64,000 nucleotides of DNA, taken from NCBI GenBank assembly GCA_947492475.1, contig CANLNM010000006.1, positions 62,001-126,000 on the forward strand, written 5' to 3'. Both the position numbers and the translations under genes were made by a program. This stretch comes from an uncultured Paracoccaceae bacterium (GTDB lineage: Bacteria; Pseudomonadota; Alphaproteobacteria; Rhodobacterales; Rhodobacteraceae). Shown in pieces: positions 5,227 through 13,828 of the stretch (positions within the stretch are counted from its first letter, which is position 1; each line of letters begins with the position of its first letter). Below the pieces are notes generated by a model. The model saw only the letters and a list, made by a program, of their open reading frames with translations. It ran no database searches and was not told the DNA's origin.

Positions 5227-5795
5227 CCAAACCTGACTTGCCCACGGCGCTGAACCTGCCGCAAATGGACCCATTGCCCGACGATGTGGCCAAATATTTC
5301 GCCGTCTGCGAAGACAAGCTAGGCATGGTGCCAAATGTGCTGCGCGCCTATGCGTTTGACGCACAAAAGCTAAACGCGTTTTCGGCGCTTTATAATGACG
5401 TGATGCTGGCCGATAGCGGCCTAAGCAAGCTAGAGCGCGAAATGATTGCCGTCACTGTCAGTGCCATCAACAAATGTTTTTATTGCCTGACAGCGCATGG
5501 CGCGGCTGTGCGGCAATTGTCGGGCGATCCAAAGCTGGGTGAAATGCTGGTGATGAACTGGCGTGTCGCCCCGTTGGATGATCGTCAAACTGCCATGCTG
5601 TTATTTGCAGAAAAGGTCACCAAAGAAAGCCACGCCGTGGTCGAAGCAGACCGTCAGGCCCTGCGGGATGTTGGGTTTAGCGATCGTGATATCTGGGACA
5701 TTGTTTCAACCATTGGGTTTTATAACATGTCCAACCGCATGGCGTCGGCGACGGCCATGGCCCCAAATGATGACTACCACGCAGCACATCGATGA
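5223..5795 (+). CDS. Peroxidase-related (AhpD/carboxymuconolactone decarboxylase-like) enzyme
   Basis: 190 residues, all-helical AhpD-like fold. The active-site element NKCFYCLTAHGAAVR places redox cysteines at C85 and C88 with H92 downstream, the CxxC-x3-H pattern of alkylhydroperoxidases. It would reduce peroxides with a dithiol donor. The family label peroxidase-related enzyme applies to homologues of this length. It sits third in the four-gene overlapping unit. The partner reductant is not encoded nearby. Confidence 0.9.
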   Translation: MTKPDLPTALNLPQMDPLPDDVAKYFAVCEDKLGMVPNVLRAYAFDAQKLNAFSALYNDVMLADSGLSKLEREMIAVTVSAINKCFYCLTAHGAAVRQLSGDPKLGEMLVMNWRVAPLDDRQTAMLLFAEKVTKESHAVVEADRQALRDVGFSDRDIWDIVSTIGFYNMSNRMASATAMAPNDDYHAAHR

Positions 5796-6730
5796 TCAGA
5801 ACCGCACTTGCCTTGATCTGTAGCTTGATCCCCGGTTTGGCCGGGGCTTTGGTGCTGGAATTTCCGGGCAACGCCCAGTTGCAATCTGAATCCGTGACGC
5901 CTCAGGGGTCGTATGCATTGCCCACTGGGCCATGGGTGGACGGGTTCATCCCGTTTAACATCGCCGAAGGCGCGGTTACGCGGCAGGCATGGCGGATTGA
6001 TGCGCAGGGGTTAACGACCTTACAGATATTATCCCCGCTTAAGACGCAGCTGGCACAAGGTGGGTTTGACACGCTGTATGAATGCGAAACCAAGGCATGC
6101 GGCGGGTTTGATTTCAGGTTTTCCACCGAAATTCTGGGTCTGCCGGACATGTATGTCGATCTGGGCGATTACCGTTACTTTGCGGCTCAAAATGGCGAAA
6201 CCGACGAATATGTGACCCTGATTGTCAGCCGGTCCAGTCGCGCGGGGTACGTTCAGGTCACGTCTGTCACGCAAACCGGTCAACAGGGGCTGCGTGGCGG
6301 CGCATCCAATCCGGTGATGCGCGGCACCACATCCATTGCGCCGGAACAGGCCGGGGATTTGGTCGGGCAATTGGAAACCAACGGTCATGTTGTTTTGGGT
6401 GATCTGGCCTTTGAAACCGGATCGGCGCAACTGGGTGAGGGCCCCTTTGATAGTCTGCAAACACTGGCGGATTATCTAAACAGCCATCCATCGCGCGTGG
6501 TTGCGTTGGTTGGACACACCGATAGCCAAGGGTCGCTGGACGGCAACATCGCCCTGTCCAAGCGGCGAGCTGGCTCTGTTCTGGAACGGTTGGTGCGTGA
6601 ATATCAGGTCAACCGCGCCCAATTGGGGGCCGAAGGCATGGGCTATCTGTCGCCTTTGTCCAGCAATCTGTCAGCCGAGGGGCGCGAAGCCAACCGCCGG
6701 GTCGAAGTGATCATGGTGTCCAACGAATAG
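5792..6730 (+). CDS. OmpA family protein with N-terminal unknown domain
   Basis: 312 residues. A signal peptide ends near residue 19 (IPGLAGALV). A central domain contains a Cys pair (YECETKACGGFDFRF), and a C-terminal OmpA peptidoglycan-binding domain follows at about 198-310, with LVGHTDSQGS and REANRRVEVIMV. It should be an outer-membrane or periplasmic protein gripping peptidoglycan. It ends the four-gene operon. Its stop is only one base from the stop of the convergent MFS gene, so a shared termination zone is expected, though no hairpin was found. Confidence 0.9.
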   Translation: MIRTALALICSLIPGLAGALVLEFPGNAQLQSESVTPQGSYALPTGPWVDGFIPFNIAEGAVTRQAWRIDAQGLTTLQILSPLKTQLAQGGFDTLYECETKACGGFDFRFSTEILGLPDMYVDLGDYRYFAAQNGETDEYVTLIVSRSSRAGYVQVTSVTQTGQQGLRGGASNPVMRGTTSIAPEQAGDLVGQLETNGHVVLGDLAFETGSAQLGEGPFDSLQTLADYLNSHPSRVVALVGHTDSQGSLDGNIALSKRRAGSVLERLVREYQVNRAQLGAEGMGYLSPLSSNLSAEGREANRRVEVIMVSNE

Positions 6731-8111: not shown

Positions 8112-9173
8112 ATGACAATTCAATCCGTATATAATGCCCGTGTGGATGCGGGCGATCTGCATCATGACCCCGTCCAAGAAGAGGTCCTGCCAGAGTTAGA
8201 ACGCATTCGCGCGCAACTGGCCGAACCGGTGAAAAAGGGCCTGTTTCGTAAGGCGCCTGAACCGGTGCGTGGGCTTTATATGTGGGGCGGCGTGGGGCGT
8301 GGGAAATCCATGTTGATGGATTTGCTGTTTGATGCGGTCAGCGTGCCCAAGCGGCGCGAACATTTCCATGCGTTTATGCAATGGGTGCATGCCGAAATGA
8401 AAACGGCGCGTGACAGAGGCGTGGATGACGCGATCAAACCGGTTGCTGACAGCCTGTCCAAAGACATCCGGTTTCTGGCCTTTGATGAAATGCAGATCAC
8501 GGATATCACCGATGCGATGATCGTCGGCCGCCTGTTCGAAGCGTTGTTTGATGCGGGCGTGACGATTGTGACGACATCCAACCGCGTGCCGGATGATCTG
8601 TATAAAAACGGGCTGAACCGGCAGCTGTTTTTGCCGTTTATCGCCCAGATTAAGGATCGTCTGAACATCTGGGAATTGGCGAGCGAGACGGATTATCGCC
8701 AACGCAAACTGGCCGGGTCACAGGTCTATTTCAGTCCAAATAATGCAGATGCCCGTGCGAAAATGGCCGCGATTTGGCAGGAATTGACCGCCGGGGATAC
8801 CCGACCCCTGATCCTTAAAGTCAAAGGCCGCGAGGTCGAAATCCCCCATTTTCACAACGGCGTGGCGCGCTGTAGCTTCTTTGATCTTTGTGGCAAAATG
8901 CTGGGCGCTGCGGATTATCTGGAATTGGCGCGCAATGTGCGTGTGCTGTTGCTCGACGATATTCCGGCGCTGGGCCGGTCCAATTTCAACGAAGCCAAAC
9001 GGTTTGTGACCCTGATTGACGCGCTCTATGAGGGCAACGTCAAATTGATCGGATCGGCGGCGGCTGAACCTGAAATGCTCTACCTCGAAGGCGAAGGCAC
9101 GTTTGAATTTGAACGCACCGCCAGCCGATTGCGGGAAATGCAGGGCGAAAATTGGGGCCGCGAGGCGGAGTAA
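8112..9173 (+). CDS. zapE: Cell division protein ZapE (AFG1-like ATPase)
   Basis: 353 residues matching the AFG1/ZapE P-loop ATPase family in length and order: YMWGGVGRGKSMLMD with Walker A at 59-66, LAFDEMQITD as Walker B at about 120-129, and the sensor TTSNRVPDDLY. In E. coli ZapE associates with FtsZ during constriction, and the mitochondrial homologue Lace1/Afg1 aids respiratory complex turnover. It stands alone, divergent from the MFS gene, with a 117-base promoter region between them. Confidence 0.95.
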   Translation: MTIQSVYNARVDAGDLHHDPVQEEVLPELERIRAQLAEPVKKGLFRKAPEPVRGLYMWGGVGRGKSMLMDLLFDAVSVPKRREHFHAFMQWVHAEMKTARDRGVDDAIKPVADSLSKDIRFLAFDEMQITDITDAMIVGRLFEALFDAGVTIVTTSNRVPDDLYKNGLNRQLFLPFIAQIKDRLNIWELASETDYRQRKLAGSQVYFSPNNADARAKMAAIWQELTAGDTRPLILKVKGREVEIPHFHNGVARCSFFDLCGKMLGAADYLELARNVRVLLLDDIPALGRSNFNEAKRFVTLIDALYEGNVKLIGSAAAEPEMLYLEGEGTFEFERTASRLREMQGENWGREAE

Positions 9174-9262: not shown

Positions 9263-10117
9263 TTAGGTCGGAATGAACAACCGCTGCCCGGCGCGGATCG
9301 TGTCCGGGCTGGATAGCAATTGGCGGTTTGCGTCGAAAATTTTCCGGTATTCCGCAGCATTCCCGTAGAATTTGATCGCGATCCCGCCAAGGCTGTCGCC
9401 GCGCTGAACCGTATAGAATTTGTTCTGAACGGTTTCGGTGGCGCGCTGCACAACGCGAACCTCAACGCCTTCGGATTGTGTGGGGTCCAGAACCGGCACC
9501 TCTGGTGCGACACCAGTGGCTGCGATTTGGGCCTGTGTGACAATGTTGGACAGCAATGTCGCGGTATCAACCCGGCCATCCGACGTCACCAGAACCTCTG
9601 GCACGGTGATCTCACCTTGCTTGGCGGCTTCGTTGATCAGCGCGTCGATATAGGCGTCGCTTTCGCCGGCCTGTAGCGCAGTGACCACCAGATTTTGCAG
9701 GCTTTCGCGCGGCGCAATATCAGCGTCCCGTCCTGTCACAGCCTGAATTCCGGCCAGAATGGACGCGGTGTTTTGCAGGTTCTCATCCACCAACGGCACC
9801 GGCGGTTCATTTGTGGCCAGACCCAGATCGGCCAAAACGTTGATGGTCATATCCTGCATCGACGTGCTGTCGGTCATGATGCCGGTTCGCTCAGATTGCG
9901 GCTGAACCATCGCGTCGACGGGCATGGCGGGGCGGCGTTCGGCGGGAATGATCATCGGTTCTGCCGGGGCGCGTGTCACTTCGACGACCTCTTGGGGGAT
10001 CACCGGCGCCGGTGGAATATCCGCCACCTGAGGTTGGCGTTCACCGGTGCTGCGGAAAATAATGAACAAGCACAGCACAACGGCAAAGCTAAAGATGGCA
10101 ATTACGGAACGGATCAT
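9263..10117 (-). CDS. Membrane-anchored LysM-domain protein (cassette copy A)
   Basis: 284 residues. An N-terminal hydrophobic anchor (about 4-21, VIAIFSFAVVLCLFIIF) is followed by a long Pro/Ala/Glu-rich linker, then a helical segment (LQNLVVTALQAGESD, VTSDGRVDTATLL) shared with the other LysM protein at 10966-11748. A C-terminal LysM domain follows at about 232-283 (YTVQRGDSLGGIAIKFYG, AGQRLFIPT). LysM binds peptidoglycan or other GlcNAc polymers, so the protein probably bridges the inner membrane and cell wall. It follows the rhodanese gene at 10154-10789 by 36 bases and forms one half of a duplicated two-gene cassette. Confidence 0.85.
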   Translation of the reverse strand: MIRSVIAIFSFAVVLCLFIIFRSTGERQPQVADIPPAPVIPQEVVEVTRAPAEPMIIPAERRPAMPVDAMVQPQSERTGIMTDSTSMQDMTINVLADLGLATNEPPVPLVDENLQNTASILAGIQAVTGRDADIAPRESLQNLVVTALQAGESDAYIDALINEAAKQGEITVPEVLVTSDGRVDTATLLSNIVTQAQIAATGVAPEVPVLDPTQSEGVEVRVVQRATETVQNKFYTVQRGDSLGGIAIKFYGNAAEYRKIFDANRQLLSSPDTIRAGQRLFIPT

Positions 10118-10153
10118 GATCTTGTCGTCTCTTTTGTTGTTTTCACACAGGCG

Positions 10154-10789
10154 TTAGCCATTTGAATTGGGGTCGGTGACAGTCAGGCCAAGTTGCAGCC
10201 AGGATTGCATTCCACCGCGGTAGTAGAAAATCTTGTCTGTGGGGTATCCGGCACCAACCAGATTGTTGATGGCGATTGTCGCTTGTTCACACCACGGGCC
10301 ATTGCAAAACAGCATCAGGTCCATCGCGTTCGAAAAATCGAGCCCAGATCCCAGATCCGTCGCCCCCAAAGCGCGCAGAATATCGCTGCGATAGGGGTTG
10401 GATGGGTCAAGCGTCGCAAAGGGCACGTTCACGGCACCCGGAATAGTGCCGTTGCTGAACCATTCCGGCAGGCGGCTATCCACCAGCAACCCGGTATTGT
10501 TGGATACGACGTCTTCTAGGAAATCCAACACTTCGAGTTCGCCAACAGTTTCAACACCGGCCGCGGCCTGCATGGGCTGAATGCAAAACGGGGGACAGGC
10601 ACGCGAGGTGCGTGAAAATTCGCCCGTCAGCATGTGGTCCTGATTTTGATCACGTTCGATCGAAAAACTCTGCCCATTCAGAACAAAGGTCGATTGTTCT
10701 TTGAACGTTGTTATATTGACCTCTTGGGCAGAAACGCTGGTTGATACCAGCAATGTTGCTGCACATAGAATACGCGCGTGTGTTTTCAT
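10154..10789 (-). CDS. Periplasmic rhodanese-like protein, catalytic Cys present (cassette copy A)
   Basis: 211 residues from an ATG preceded by GGGGGGT. The signal peptide ends near SVSAQ (residue 22). A lineage-specific N-terminal part with C65 and C69 (ACPPFC) is followed by a rhodanese fold: GLLVDSRLPEW, IPGAVNVPF, and the active loop FCNGPWCEQA with C162 as the presumed sulfur-carrying nucleophile and C167 nearby, then YYRGGMQSW. It could act as a periplasmic sulfurtransferase or thiol oxidoreductase. It is about 27% longer at the N terminus than a bare rhodanese domain. It pairs with the LysM gene downstream, duplicating the 11763-12386/10966-11748 pair. Confidence 0.85.
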   Translation of the reverse strand: MKTHARILCAATLLVSTSVSAQEVNITTFKEQSTFVLNGQSFSIERDQNQDHMLTGEFSRTSRACPPFCIQPMQAAAGVETVGELEVLDFLEDVVSNNTGLLVDSRLPEWFSNGTIPGAVNVPFATLDPSNPYRSDILRALGATDLGSGLDFSNAMDLMLFCNGPWCEQATIAINNLVGAGYPTDKIFYYRGGMQSWLQLGLTVTDPNSNG

Positions 10790-10834
10790 CGATGTTACCC
10801 CCCAATACGTGTACGCTATATTTAGGTATGCTCG

Positions 10835-10842
10835 CTGGCAGG
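10835..10842 (-). promoter_or_regulatory. Conserved leader element CCTGCCAG, copy A
   Basis: On the minus strand CCTGCCAG lies about 20-27 bases after the predicted transcription start and 46-53 bases before the rhodanese A start codon. The identical octamer is at the same relative place in cassette B (12436-12443), while the surrounding bases differ. It may be part of a leader-RNA or operator element. Confidence 0.45.
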
Positions 10843-10868
10843 CGATGCGCACAGGATTGTGACTACCA

Positions 10869-10917
10869 GATGTAGTTCGTGCGAATCACCTTCGTCAATC
10901 CATTACCAAGGTGATTC
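10869..10917 (-). promoter_or_regulatory. Promoter with GAATCACC/GGTGATTC operator, cassette A
   Basis: Minus-strand TTGACG (plus 10893-10898) and TACATC (10869-10874) are 18 bases apart, giving a start near 10862. A perfect 10-base inverted repeat, GAATCACCTT (10883-10892) and AAGGTGATTC (10908-10917), brackets the -35 element. The same box and spacing recur upstream of cassette B. Both arms contain GANTC, the CcrM methylation site of alphaproteobacteria. A repressor or activator bound here would directly gate the promoter. Confidence 0.6.
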
Positions 10918-10965
10918 GGCGTTTGTATTTCAATTATTCGACCCGAATGGCCGATTTTTCAGCGT

Positions 10966-11748
10966 TTAGATGGCTGGGATCAGCAATCGCTGCCCAACTC
11001 GGATTTGATCCGGGCTTGATAAGGTGCCAGGATTGGCTTCGTAGATGACACGATAGGCATCTGTCCGGCCGTAATATTGCAGCGCGATAAACGCCAGACT
11101 GTCGCCGGATTCCACAACATAATAGGCGTCCTGTGTATGACGAGAAACCGGCGGGCGCTGTGGTGTGACAGAGGCAACGGCGTTGACCATTTGCGCGGAC
11201 GCGCTGGTGTCGATGCCTTCTTCGCTGACGGCTTTTTCAACCAAACTGAACAACAAAGCGCGGGCATCCACCTGACCATTCGCGGCCTGTACGCCCTCTG
11301 GGATGTGGATCAGCCCGTTATTGGCCGCATTTGCCAGCAATTCCACGACTTCTGCTTCGTCCCGACCCGTGGCGAGGGCTGCGACGGCATCCTCTGAAAT
11401 GCTTTCGTTCAATGTTGTTGCTGTGTTGGCCTGATCATGGGTTTCAGCGGCCAATTCCATCAACGCCATGAACGTGGCGCGCGATTCATCGCTGGTGGTT
11501 GTTTCTTCGGCCACACGTGCATTGGCCTGACGTTGTGCCAATGGCGATAGGGCTGGCTGTGCGGCAGGTTCTGCCGTGGCCAAGGCCGGAACGCTGGTGT
11601 TCAAATCTGTCGCCTGACGGGTCACTTGGGGCTGAGCCAAGGCGTCTTGGATGGATTTTTCGACCAGTTTCCAAGTCACCAGGCTGCCGCCGACAAATGT
11701 GATGCTACCGAATGCAAGGGCTGCAAAAATTGTTGTTTTAGAAGTCAT
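10966..11748 (-). CDS. Membrane-anchored LysM-domain protein (cassette copy B)
   Basis: 260 residues. The anchor is near residues 5-25 (TIFAALAFGSITFVGGSLVTW), followed by an Ala/Gln/Thr-rich linker and a helical middle (DEAEVVELLANAANNG, NGQVDARALL) that aligns with the LysM protein at 9263-10117. The C-terminal LysM domain is YYVVESGDSLAFIALQYYG to VGQRLLIPAI. An upstream TTG at 11766 would overlap the rhodanese stop by four bases. I prefer the ATG at 11748, which directly precedes the signal-anchor. It is co-transcribed with the rhodanese gene at 11763-12386. Confidence 0.85.
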   Translation of the reverse strand: MTSKTTIFAALAFGSITFVGGSLVTWKLVEKSIQDALAQPQVTRQATDLNTSVPALATAEPAAQPALSPLAQRQANARVAEETTTSDESRATFMALMELAAETHDQANTATTLNESISEDAVAALATGRDEAEVVELLANAANNGLIHIPEGVQAANGQVDARALLFSLVEKAVSEEGIDTSASAQMVNAVASVTPQRPPVSRHTQDAYYVVESGDSLAFIALQYYGRTDAYRVIYEANPGTLSSPDQIRVGQRLLIPAI

Positions 11749-11762
11749 TGCGATGTTTCCCG

Positions 11763-12386
11763 TCAAGATTGGGGTTTTACATAAGTTAAACGAAGAGCGG
11801 CCCAGGCCTGCATTCCACCGCGGTAGAATTGCAATTTTGACGTGGGGTATCCGGCGTCGATCAAGGTTGAGATCAGGCGGGCTGATTGATCCGTGCTGGG
11901 ACCTTCGGAGAAAATGATCAGGTCATAGGCGTTCTGAAAATCCCAACTGCCCTCAGTTTGGACACCGCCCAAAGCTGTCAGGATGTCGTTGCGATAGGGA
12001 TTGCCTTCGGCCAGTGTTTCATTTGGGACATTGACCGATGCCGGAATGAAGCCTTTGCCGCGATTTGCGGGCAGGCGGGCGTCGACCAACAGACCCGTGC
12101 CAGCGGCGACTTGGGTGGTCAGAAATTCCAGAACTTCGCGTTCGCCGACTGTCTGAACACCCGCCGCGGCCTGAAAGGGCGCAAGGCACATGCCTTCGCA
12201 GCCTTCGACCGGCGTGGCAAATGTTTCGACCATGTTGGCGTCAAACGTCTGGTTTCGGGCAATCAACATTTGCTGCCCGTTGAAGATAAAGCTGATTTCA
12301 GTATTTGCGTCTTGTGCGGCACCCTGTGTGGATGACAACAAAACGGCCGAGAGCACCCCGACTGCTTTTGCGGCATGTGCACGCAT
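11763..12386 (-). CDS. Periplasmic rhodanese-like protein lacking the catalytic Cys (cassette copy B)
   Basis: 207 residues with a signal peptide (cleavage near STQGAAQ) and the same layout as the rhodanese at 10154: CxxxC at C63 and C67, then FQAAAGVQTVGEREVLEFL, GLLVDARLP, IPASVNVPNETL, NPYRNDILTALG and FYRGGMQAW. The active loop reads FSEGPSTDQ: the nucleophilic Cys is S160 and the second Cys is T165, so sulfur transfer is not expected. It is probably a pseudoenzyme or binding partner. The ATG follows a GGGGGGA stretch. It leads the LysM copy B gene. Confidence 0.85.
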   Translation of the reverse strand: MRAHAAKAVGVLSAVLLSSTQGAAQDANTEISFIFNGQQMLIARNQTFDANMVETFATPVEGCEGMCLAPFQAAAGVQTVGEREVLEFLTTQVAAGTGLLVDARLPANRGKGFIPASVNVPNETLAEGNPYRNDILTALGGVQTEGSWDFQNAYDLIIFSEGPSTDQSARLISTLIDAGYPTSKLQFYRGGMQAWAALRLTYVKPQS

Positions 12387-12435
12387 TGCATTCCCCCCTT
12401 AAATACTTTGCCTCCACAAGATACAGTAAATACGA

Positions 12436-12443
12436 CTGGCAGG
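12436..12443 (-). promoter_or_regulatory. Conserved leader element CCTGCCAG, copy B
   Basis: Same octamer and same distance from the predicted transcription start (about +20 to +27) as at 10835-10842, 50-57 bases before the rhodanese B start codon. Confidence 0.45.
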
Positions 12444-12469
12444 TCGCGCTTATGTTGGCTCAATACCAA

Positions 12470-12539
12470 TATATAGGGGCATCACGAATCACCCGTCAAA
12501 GGAAAACGAATCACTTTTGCAATTTCGTGGGGTGATTCG
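12470..12539 (-). promoter_or_regulatory. Promoter with three GAATCAC-type boxes, cassette B
   Basis: Minus-strand TTGACG (plus 12494-12499) and TATATA (12470-12475) are 18 bases apart, predicting a start near 12463. CGAATCACCC (12485-12494) lies in the promoter spacer and pairs as an inverted repeat with GGGTGATTCG (12530-12539). A third box CGAATCAC (12507-12514) is 22 bases from the first, two helical turns. GGTGATTCGGC (12531-12541) is identical to 10910-10920 of cassette A. A fourth GANTC is at 12553. Confidence 0.6.
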
Positions 12540-12565
12540 GCATTTCAGACGCGAATCGGGGTGTT

Positions 12566-13828
12566 TTAGCCCTGTCGCAGCACATTTCCGGCCAGATAAA
12601 GCGACCCACAGATCAAAATGCGCGCATGCGGCTCTTGCTTTGTGATGGTTGCGATCGCTTCGGCGACGTCATTTGCGCTGCTTGCAGTCAGGCCACTATC
12701 GCGTGCAGCCTGCGCTGTTTCAGTCGCGGGCAGGGTGTTTGCCTCACCCGGAATGGACACGGCATGCAGATGCGTCGCAAAGCTGGCAAGCGGCGCCATA
12801 TAGCCGGTCACGTCTTTGGTATTGAGCATCCCACAGATCAGATGCGTGGCCCGTTTGGGCAGTCTATCTAACGTGGCGGCAATGGCATGTGCGGCGGCGG
12901 GGTTATGCCCGCCATCCAGCCACAATTCCGCACCGGGGGCGATCTGGTTATAGGGGTGGTCGGTCAGGCGCTGCATGCGCGCAGGCCAGAACGCCTGCGT
13001 CACGGCCGCCTCGCAGGCGGCGGCGTCACAACCCAGATGCCGCAAAACGGCCAAGGCGGCCCCGGCATTCATAATCTGATGAGGCCCCGGCAGGTTGGGC
13101 AGCGGCAGATCCAGCAGCCCGGTTTCATCCTGAAACACCATGCGCCCGTTTTCTTCGCTGACATGCCAGTGTTGACCATGGGCCAGCAGGGGCGCGCCCA
13201 GTTTGGCGGCTGTGGCTTCGATCACATCCATGGCGTCGTCTTGTTGTGGGCCAACCACACAAGGCACGCCGCGTTTGATGATCCCGGCCTTTTCACCCGC
13301 GATTTCGGGCAGGGTGTCGCCCAGAAATTGCTGATGATCCAGATCGATTGGGGTGATGACCGATATGGCAGGCGTGATCACGTTGGTGGCATCCAGCCGC
13401 CCGCCCAGGCCGACCTCTAGCAATGTGTAATCAGCGGCGGTTTCGGCAAAGGCCAGCAGGCCCGCGACGGTCGTGATTTCGAAATAGGTGATGTTTTCGC
13501 CGTTATTGGCGGCGTAGCAGCGATCCAGAATATCCGTCAGGTGCTGTTCACTGATCAGCGTGCCAGCTAGCCGGATCCGTTCGTGGAACCGGGCCAAATG
13601 CGGGGATGTATAGGCGTGGACGGATTTGCCCGCCGCCTCTAGTCCGGCGCGGATCATCGCTTGGGTCGATCCTTTGCCGTTTGTGCCGGCCAAATGGATG
13701 ACCGGTGGCAGTTTGTCCTGCGGGTTGTCCAGCGCTGCCAACAGACGCCAGACCCGGTCCAGCGTCAGGTCGATGATTTTAGGATGCAGCGCCATCATCC
13801 GTTGCAGGATGAGATCGGACCCGCTCAC
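12566..13828 (-). CDS. folC: Bifunctional folylpolyglutamate synthase/dihydrofolate synthase
   Basis: 420 residues of the Mur ligase-like FolC family. The ATP loop is LAGTNGKGSTQAM at 46-58, followed by YTSPHLARFHERI, ITPIDLDHQQFLG and the C-terminal WLDGGHNPAAA. It adds L-glutamate to dihydropteroate and extends folate polyglutamate tails in the cytosol. It begins with GTG, sharing four bases (GTGA) with the stop of accD, a common accD-folC arrangement in proteobacteria. Confidence 0.96.
   Translation of the reverse strand: MSGSDLILQRMMALHPKIIDLTLDRVWRLLAALDNPQDKLPPVIHLAGTNGKGSTQAMIRAGLEAAGKSVHAYTSPHLARFHERIRLAGTLISEQHLTDILDRCYAANNGENITYFEITTVAGLLAFAETAADYTLLEVGLGGRLDATNVITPAISVITPIDLDHQQFLGDTLPEIAGEKAGIIKRGVPCVVGPQQDDAMDVIEATAAKLGAPLLAHGQHWHVSEENGRMVFQDETGLLDLPLPNLPGPHQIMNAGAALAVLRHLGCDAAACEAAVTQAFWPARMQRLTDHPYNQIAPGAELWLDGGHNPAAAHAIAATLDRLPKRATHLICGMLNTKDVTGYMAPLASFATHLHAVSIPGEANTLPATETAQAARDSGLTASSANDVAEAIATITKQEPHARILICGSLYLAGNVLRQG

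Follow-up and report, generated by a model that had tools for sequence, protein, structure and literature searches.

Why would a bacterium keep, next to each other, two copies of a gene pair that encodes a rhodanese-like protein and a LysM protein? The question is raised by a 64,000-nucleotide stretch of DNA from an uncultured Paracoccaceae bacterium (the window), whose minus strand carries the pairs rhoA-lysA and rhoB-lysB, each with a separate predicted promoter. The original prediction regarded them as an anciently duplicated cassette in which a periplasmic thiol/sulfur protein is the partner of a peptidoglycan-binding anchor. The reading preferred here, at a probability of roughly 0.55, is that the rhodanese (R) and the LysM protein (L) form an envelope complex reaching from membrane to peptidoglycan, with a rhodanese-fold subunit that is either catalytic or a pseudoenzyme, made under GcrA/CcrM timing.

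Architecture of the two gene pairs

The four genes lie between a conserved upstream neighbor, folC (12566-13828, minus strand), and a conserved convergent neighbor, a zapE/AFG1-family ATPase gene (8112-9173, plus strand). rhoA (11763-12386, minus strand) encodes a putatively exported rhodanese-fold protein of 207 aa, and its partner lysA (10966-11751, minus strand) a protein with a predicted transmembrane anchor, a helical middle domain, and a C-terminal LysM domain. rhoB (10154-10789, minus strand) encodes the second putatively exported rhodanese, with the motif CPPFC (C65, C69) and the active-site loop CNGPWC (C162, C167). In the product of lysB (9263-10117, minus strand), a transmembrane helix at residues 2-25 is followed by a disordered linker, a helical domain at about 87-201, and a Kbp-like LysM domain at 235-284. 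Two successive rhodanese/LysM pairs on one strand had been predicted, and all four genes are found in that order.

Against the Pfam cut-off of 22.2 bits for PF00581, RhoA scores 26.6 and RhoB 42.7, and the rhodanese superfamily criterion is met. Both partners exceed the cut-off of 20.9 bits for the LysM family PF01476, at 34.8 and 32.9 bits. The claim that both members are paralogous between the copies holds: RhoA and RhoB share 46% identity over 212 columns (E 9e-62), and LysA and LysB 37% over 148 residues of the middle helical region and LysM domain (E 5e-24). The segments CxxxC, QAAAGV, TVGE, and NPYR, named earlier as common to the rhodaneses, are present. RhoA and RhoB are the only rhodaneses of this family in the whole 3.55-Mb genome, and no third one was found there. 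The signal peptides of the rhodaneses and the single N-terminal transmembrane helix of their partners are inferred without a dedicated predictor. The AlphaFold2 model of RhoB has a pLDDT of 92.5, and its Foldseek matches are rhodanese structures. In the LysB model, a confident transmembrane helix and a disordered linker precede the helical domain, and the LysM domain is closest to Escherichia coli Kbp. The helical domain of the LysM partner has no match in Pfam. About 2.5 kb from the cassette, the window also encodes an exported protein with an OmpA-like C-terminal sequence (5792-6730, plus strand).

Recurrence of the pairing

The pairing of R and L genes is general. In an even sample of 149 genomes from across the Rhodobacteraceae, 50 contain rhodanese matches, 66 in total. 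For the analysis of neighbors, 64 rhodaneses were sorted into a short form without the NPYR insert (31) and a long form (33). Of the 33 long-type rhodaneses, 29, spread over 27 genomes, are immediately followed by a LysM gene on the same strand; of the 31 short-type stand-alone paralogues, none is. In the reverse direction, the best 21 matches of a search with the LysM protein all adjoin a rhodanese. Most family genomes with the pair share the order accD-folC-[R-L]-zapE. The pair is also present, in unrelated contexts, in vent Hyphomicrobiales, Thermopetrobacter, Halochromatium, other Gammaproteobacteria, and Campylobacterota. Usual separation of the homologues had been set beforehand as the result that would refute the cassette, and it is excluded by the 29 paired long-type homologues and by the recurrence in other orders and in Campylobacterota. 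Outside the family the rhodanese is rare, with 6 genomes in all from a class-wide draw of 385, and a LysM profile search at class level mostly returned unrelated LysM domains.

Two further ideas about gene context were rejected. A larger conserved operon is not supported, as the constant unit is only R plus one or two L. A metal-resistance context for the stand-alone rhodaneses, guessed from gene sizes, was given up once the neighbors scanned had been identified as UvrB, NDUFS4, Usp, ABM, and others.

Several loci have features of their own. In two Campylobacterota loci (L174:5989-11229 and L185:417-4331), an R with Asp for Cys, an L, an active-type R, and an OmpA-domain-like protein with Asp-rich repeats are encoded in this order, and a 560-aa repeat protein lies between the first R and L of L174. 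In two gammaproteobacterial loci (L166:4197-5873 and L171:3584-5851), the cassette is immediately preceded by AAA_22 ATPase genes. A family of secreted proteins of ~179 aa, with no Pfam or NCBIfam match for the one representative scanned, is encoded between folC and the cassette in L045, L048, L049, and L055, and inside the cassette in L091. An L-like sequence whose search match contains two in-frame stops (L217, G075:C1:4500-16500) comes from a genome in which no rhodanese of this family was found, and this L-like locus without R is a point against the module proposed below. L137 and L138 share a contig name and length, one being from a Roseobacter MAG and the other from a MAG with the label Flavobacteriia, which suggests a mislabelled bin.

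Catalytic residue of the rhodaneses

The active-site loop of RhoB (FCNGPWC) contains the catalytic Cys, and the corresponding RhoA loop (FSEGPSTDQS) has none, although RhoA keeps the N-terminal motif as CEGMC. Only RhoB can therefore be a classical sulfurtransferase. RhoA is not filed as one, and the activity of RhoB is plausible, being inferred only from its sequence. The description of the rhodaneses as periplasmic thiol/sulfur proteins thus survives in part: the catalytic loop of RhoB agrees with it, whereas the missing Cys of RhoA and the recurrent loss in the family do not.

The catalytic Cys is absent from 34 of 147 rhodaneses, and 32 of these 34 stand beside a LysM gene. By class, it is missing from 25 of 56 folC-linked rhodaneses, 7 of 42 in other cassettes, and 2 of 49 for which no LysM gene was seen. 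The tree requires at least 7 changes at this residue. In several genera the R at the locus is solely of the Cys-less type. Asp replaces Cys in the first rhodanese of most Campylobacterota loci, where another copy, of the active type, comes after the LysM gene. Almost all rhodaneses (144/147) retain the N-terminal CxxxC. Recurrent loss of the catalytic Cys, RhoA included, makes sulfur transfer an unlikely common function for the family, as far as predicted active sites can tell.

These counts bear on the view that the pair is a periplasmic system for handling sulfane sulfur (persulfide or thiosulfate), in which the LysM protein merely keeps the enzyme near the wall. The rhodanese fold, the catalytic Cys in most members, and the relatives in vent and sulfur-oxidising lineages, Halochromatium and Campylobacterota among them, all speak for it. 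It is nevertheless judged unlikely, given the repeated loss of the Cys beside LysM genes, the genera left with only Cys-less copies, and the lack of any known sulfur-oxidation gene among the scanned neighbors.

Predicted promoters of the folC-linked pairs

Predicted promoter A (12470-12499, minus strand) consists of TTGACG (12499-12494), an 18-bp spacer, and TATATA (12475-12470), with a GANTC site in the spacer (12490-12486). This is one of four GANTC sites in the region 12486-12557 (12553-12557, 12534-12538, 12508-12512, and 12486-12490, minus strand), all of which fit YGAKTCG. Predicted promoter B (10869-10898, minus strand) has TTGACG (10898-10893), an 18-bp spacer, and TACATC (10874-10869). 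Its two GANTC sites (10883-10917, minus strand) lie at 10913-10917 and, within the spacer, at 10883-10887. Across loci, a TTGAC/TATA-like promoter with a spacer mostly of 18 bp is predicted in 47 of 58, and 39 of these 47 have GANTC between the -35 and -10 elements, as do both window promoters.

The mean number of GANTC sites per folC-linked cassette promoter is 3.04, compared with 0.33 per 250 bp before other genes, 0.47 before rhodaneses without LysM, 0.44 for cassettes of other orders, and 0.57 to 1.80 for control words of equal composition. The extended form YGAKTCG occurs 131 times in the folC-linked promoters, often within a TTGAC-N18-TATATC promoter, against 14.3±3.5 in dinucleotide shuffles. 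Promoter B by itself is not unusual, with 2 GANTC sites at a shuffle frequency of 0.36. A stringent promoter pattern falls at three places in the window genome, namely both cassette promoters and one inside an ORF, and with 4 matches it is not over-represented genome-wide. Its reversed control has 9 matches, so rarity is no evidence, and the case rests on position and on conservation across genera.

In Caulobacter, GANTC between -35 and -10 is linked to mid-cycle activation, at 40-60 min (PMC4287350). The extended GcrA form YGAKTCG is that of Haakonsen et al. 2015 as quoted in PMC7987155. For Rhodobacterales, control by methylation was earlier suggested to be minor (PMC8116508). The window genome contains gcrA (GcrA match of 159.7 bits) and a CcrM-like methylase, with a RAMA domain over the cut-off in an ORF with the methylase motif DPPY. 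GcrA/CcrM control of the folC-linked pairs is strongly inferred from these predicted promoters, without GcrA binding data.

Most cassettes away from the folC locus have no GANTC cluster, and cell-cycle timing would therefore not belong to the ancestral function. The same observation favors another account, in which the pair is an envelope assembly or quality-control complex unconnected to division and the GcrA/CcrM promoters are a lineage-specific device for expression. The OmpA-domain-like protein of the Campylobacterota operon and the upstream AAA_22 ATPases of the two gammaproteobacterial loci, one with an SH3 domain, would suit such a complex. The strong conservation of the promoter in the lineage of interest counts against it, and the account appears improbable. 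Even more doubtful is the proposal that the GATTCG motifs are sites of some unknown transcription factor and not of GcrA/CcrM, a proposal that concerns regulation only and is compatible with any function of the pair. Its strength is that the evidence is confined to sequence, with no GcrA-binding data. Most sites nevertheless match the published GcrA-extended form, gcrA and ccrM are both in the genome, and the clusters are missing from cassettes in other orders and phyla.

A conserved leader hairpin

Between the promoter and the Shine-Dalgarno sequence, a hairpin is predicted whose CUGCCA loop is conserved. In the rhoB leader (hairpin B, 10808-10855, minus strand), the outer stem is variable in sequence and the inner part is CGC-CUGCCA-GCG. 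The element upstream of rhoA (element A, 12409-12456, minus strand) is a weaker form, CGAC-CUGCCA-GUCG. MAFFT/RNAalifold on the leaders gave no consensus stem, and pairing was therefore tested by partner swapping and with a covariance model. Exchanging stem partners between loci lowers the score from 17.3 to 12.6±0.45 (0/200). At 6 of 7 outer pairs, changes on both sides preserve pairing, in an alignment that leans to structure. The covariance model has 19 matches in 75 loci (1.03 Mb), all in cassette leaders except for a weak minus-strand match (E 0.27). These comparisons demonstrate a conserved, covarying hairpin in cassette leaders at the level of predicted pairing. It matches no Rfam family. 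A wider regulon of the hairpin was considered and rejected, as the model matches only the rhoB leader in the window genome.

Duplication and correlated evolution

RhoA-type rhodaneses form a single clade (12 rows, SH-aLRT 99), and their LysM partners, the LysA type, form a clade of their own (6 rows, SH-aLRT 97). The trees come from short searches without bootstrap, and several forks are unresolved. Since LysA-type proteins track RhoA-type rhodaneses, the pair appears to have been duplicated as a unit. Duplication of the whole pair with losses afterwards fits the trees, and the matched clades agree with the ancient duplication that had been proposed. Other arrangements are R-L-R-L in Planktotalea arctica, R-R-L in Octadecabacter and Pseudooctadecabacter, and L-R-L in a Lentibacter and a Rhodobacterales MAG.

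Regressing out the folC and accD distances leaves a correlation between the distances of R and those of L (partial r 0.63, 0/2000 permutations), also among rhodaneses with the catalytic Cys only (0.37, 1/2000). Physical linkage can contribute to this correlation. Together with the recurrent adjacency and the matched A and B clades, it upholds the claim of a partnership. That R and L are only co-transcribed, without a joint function, remains arguable for want of direct interaction evidence, yet it is scarcely tenable in view of adjacency retained over two phyla and many unrelated neighborhoods, duplication as pairs, and correlated evolution.

Proposed module

In the proposed membrane-to-peptidoglycan complex, the N-terminal helix of L would anchor it in the inner membrane, and its LysM domain is expected to bind peptidoglycan, although no binding data exist. 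R would reach the periplasm by export and there most likely dock on L, perhaps at the helical middle domain, with its fold serving as a docking or sensing subunit. Export of R and anchoring of L are inferred from predicted segments and from the models. Copies of R with the CxxxxC catalytic loop could carry out persulfide or thiol chemistry, and the others would now be pseudoenzymes. In Rhodobacteraceae, the pair would be transcribed from a sigma70-type promoter whose CcrM methylation sites have the form activated by GcrA, and for this reason its expression is probably confined to a period set by chromosome replication. Such timing suggests that it works in growth of the cell wall or in division. 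Physical contact between R and L, the timing, and the envelope or division role are inferences with neither an experiment nor a model of the complex behind them. A more specific version is possible and is put forward tentatively: an undescribed complex, timed by the cell cycle, in which R (in many cases a pseudoenzyme) docks on a membrane protein tethered to peptidoglycan and acts while the wall grows or the cell divides, and to which the leader hairpin adds post-transcriptional control.

Relation to known systems

Neither a rhodanese with LysM nor a rhodanese with GcrA has been described as such a system in the open-access literature, and subscription papers were mostly outside the search. 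Within that limit, the earlier statement that no system of this form is known stands. The novelty is the two-protein module, both protein folds being already known. An uncharacterised two-protein module, probably of the envelope and spanning two phyla, is now named, and it offers a naturally occurring set of rhodaneses, some catalytic and some pseudoenzymes, that share one partner family.

PspE of E. coli (PMC2593051) is likewise an exported single rhodanese domain, and RhoB resembles it in having a plausible catalytic Cys. In contrast to PspE, R has an N-terminal extension with a conserved CPPFC, the loop CNGPWC, and a LysM-protein partner, and in RhoA and others the catalytic Cys is missing. 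The rhodanese domains of TBC1D23 (PMC7274447) and USP8 (PMC12057046) also use the fold for interaction without catalysis, but they are eukaryotic and cytosolic, and no sequence relation is claimed. The closest solved relative of the C-terminal LysM domain is a Kbp/YgaU-type protein (PDB 7pvc; 53% identity, 53 columns). L differs from Kbp in its N-terminal transmembrane anchor and in an unassigned helical domain that replaces the rest of Kbp, and both copies fall short of the Kbp/YgaU equivalog NF008399 (57.6 and 68.7 bits, NCBIfam cut-off 134).

In PMC4287350 and PMC7987155, promoters of the Caulobacter GcrA/CcrM regulon resemble those of the cassette in being sigma70-type, with GANTC between -35 and -10 in the YGAKTCG form; the cassette genes are not among the targets described in those papers. 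The cassette also differs from the Caulobacter promoters in having several sites per promoter and in its lineage, Rhodobacterales. Other GANTC clusters in the same genome lie near dnaG/rpoD-like genes (L104, G000:C1 near 832111) and upstream of a gene for a response regulator of the OmpR type (L114).
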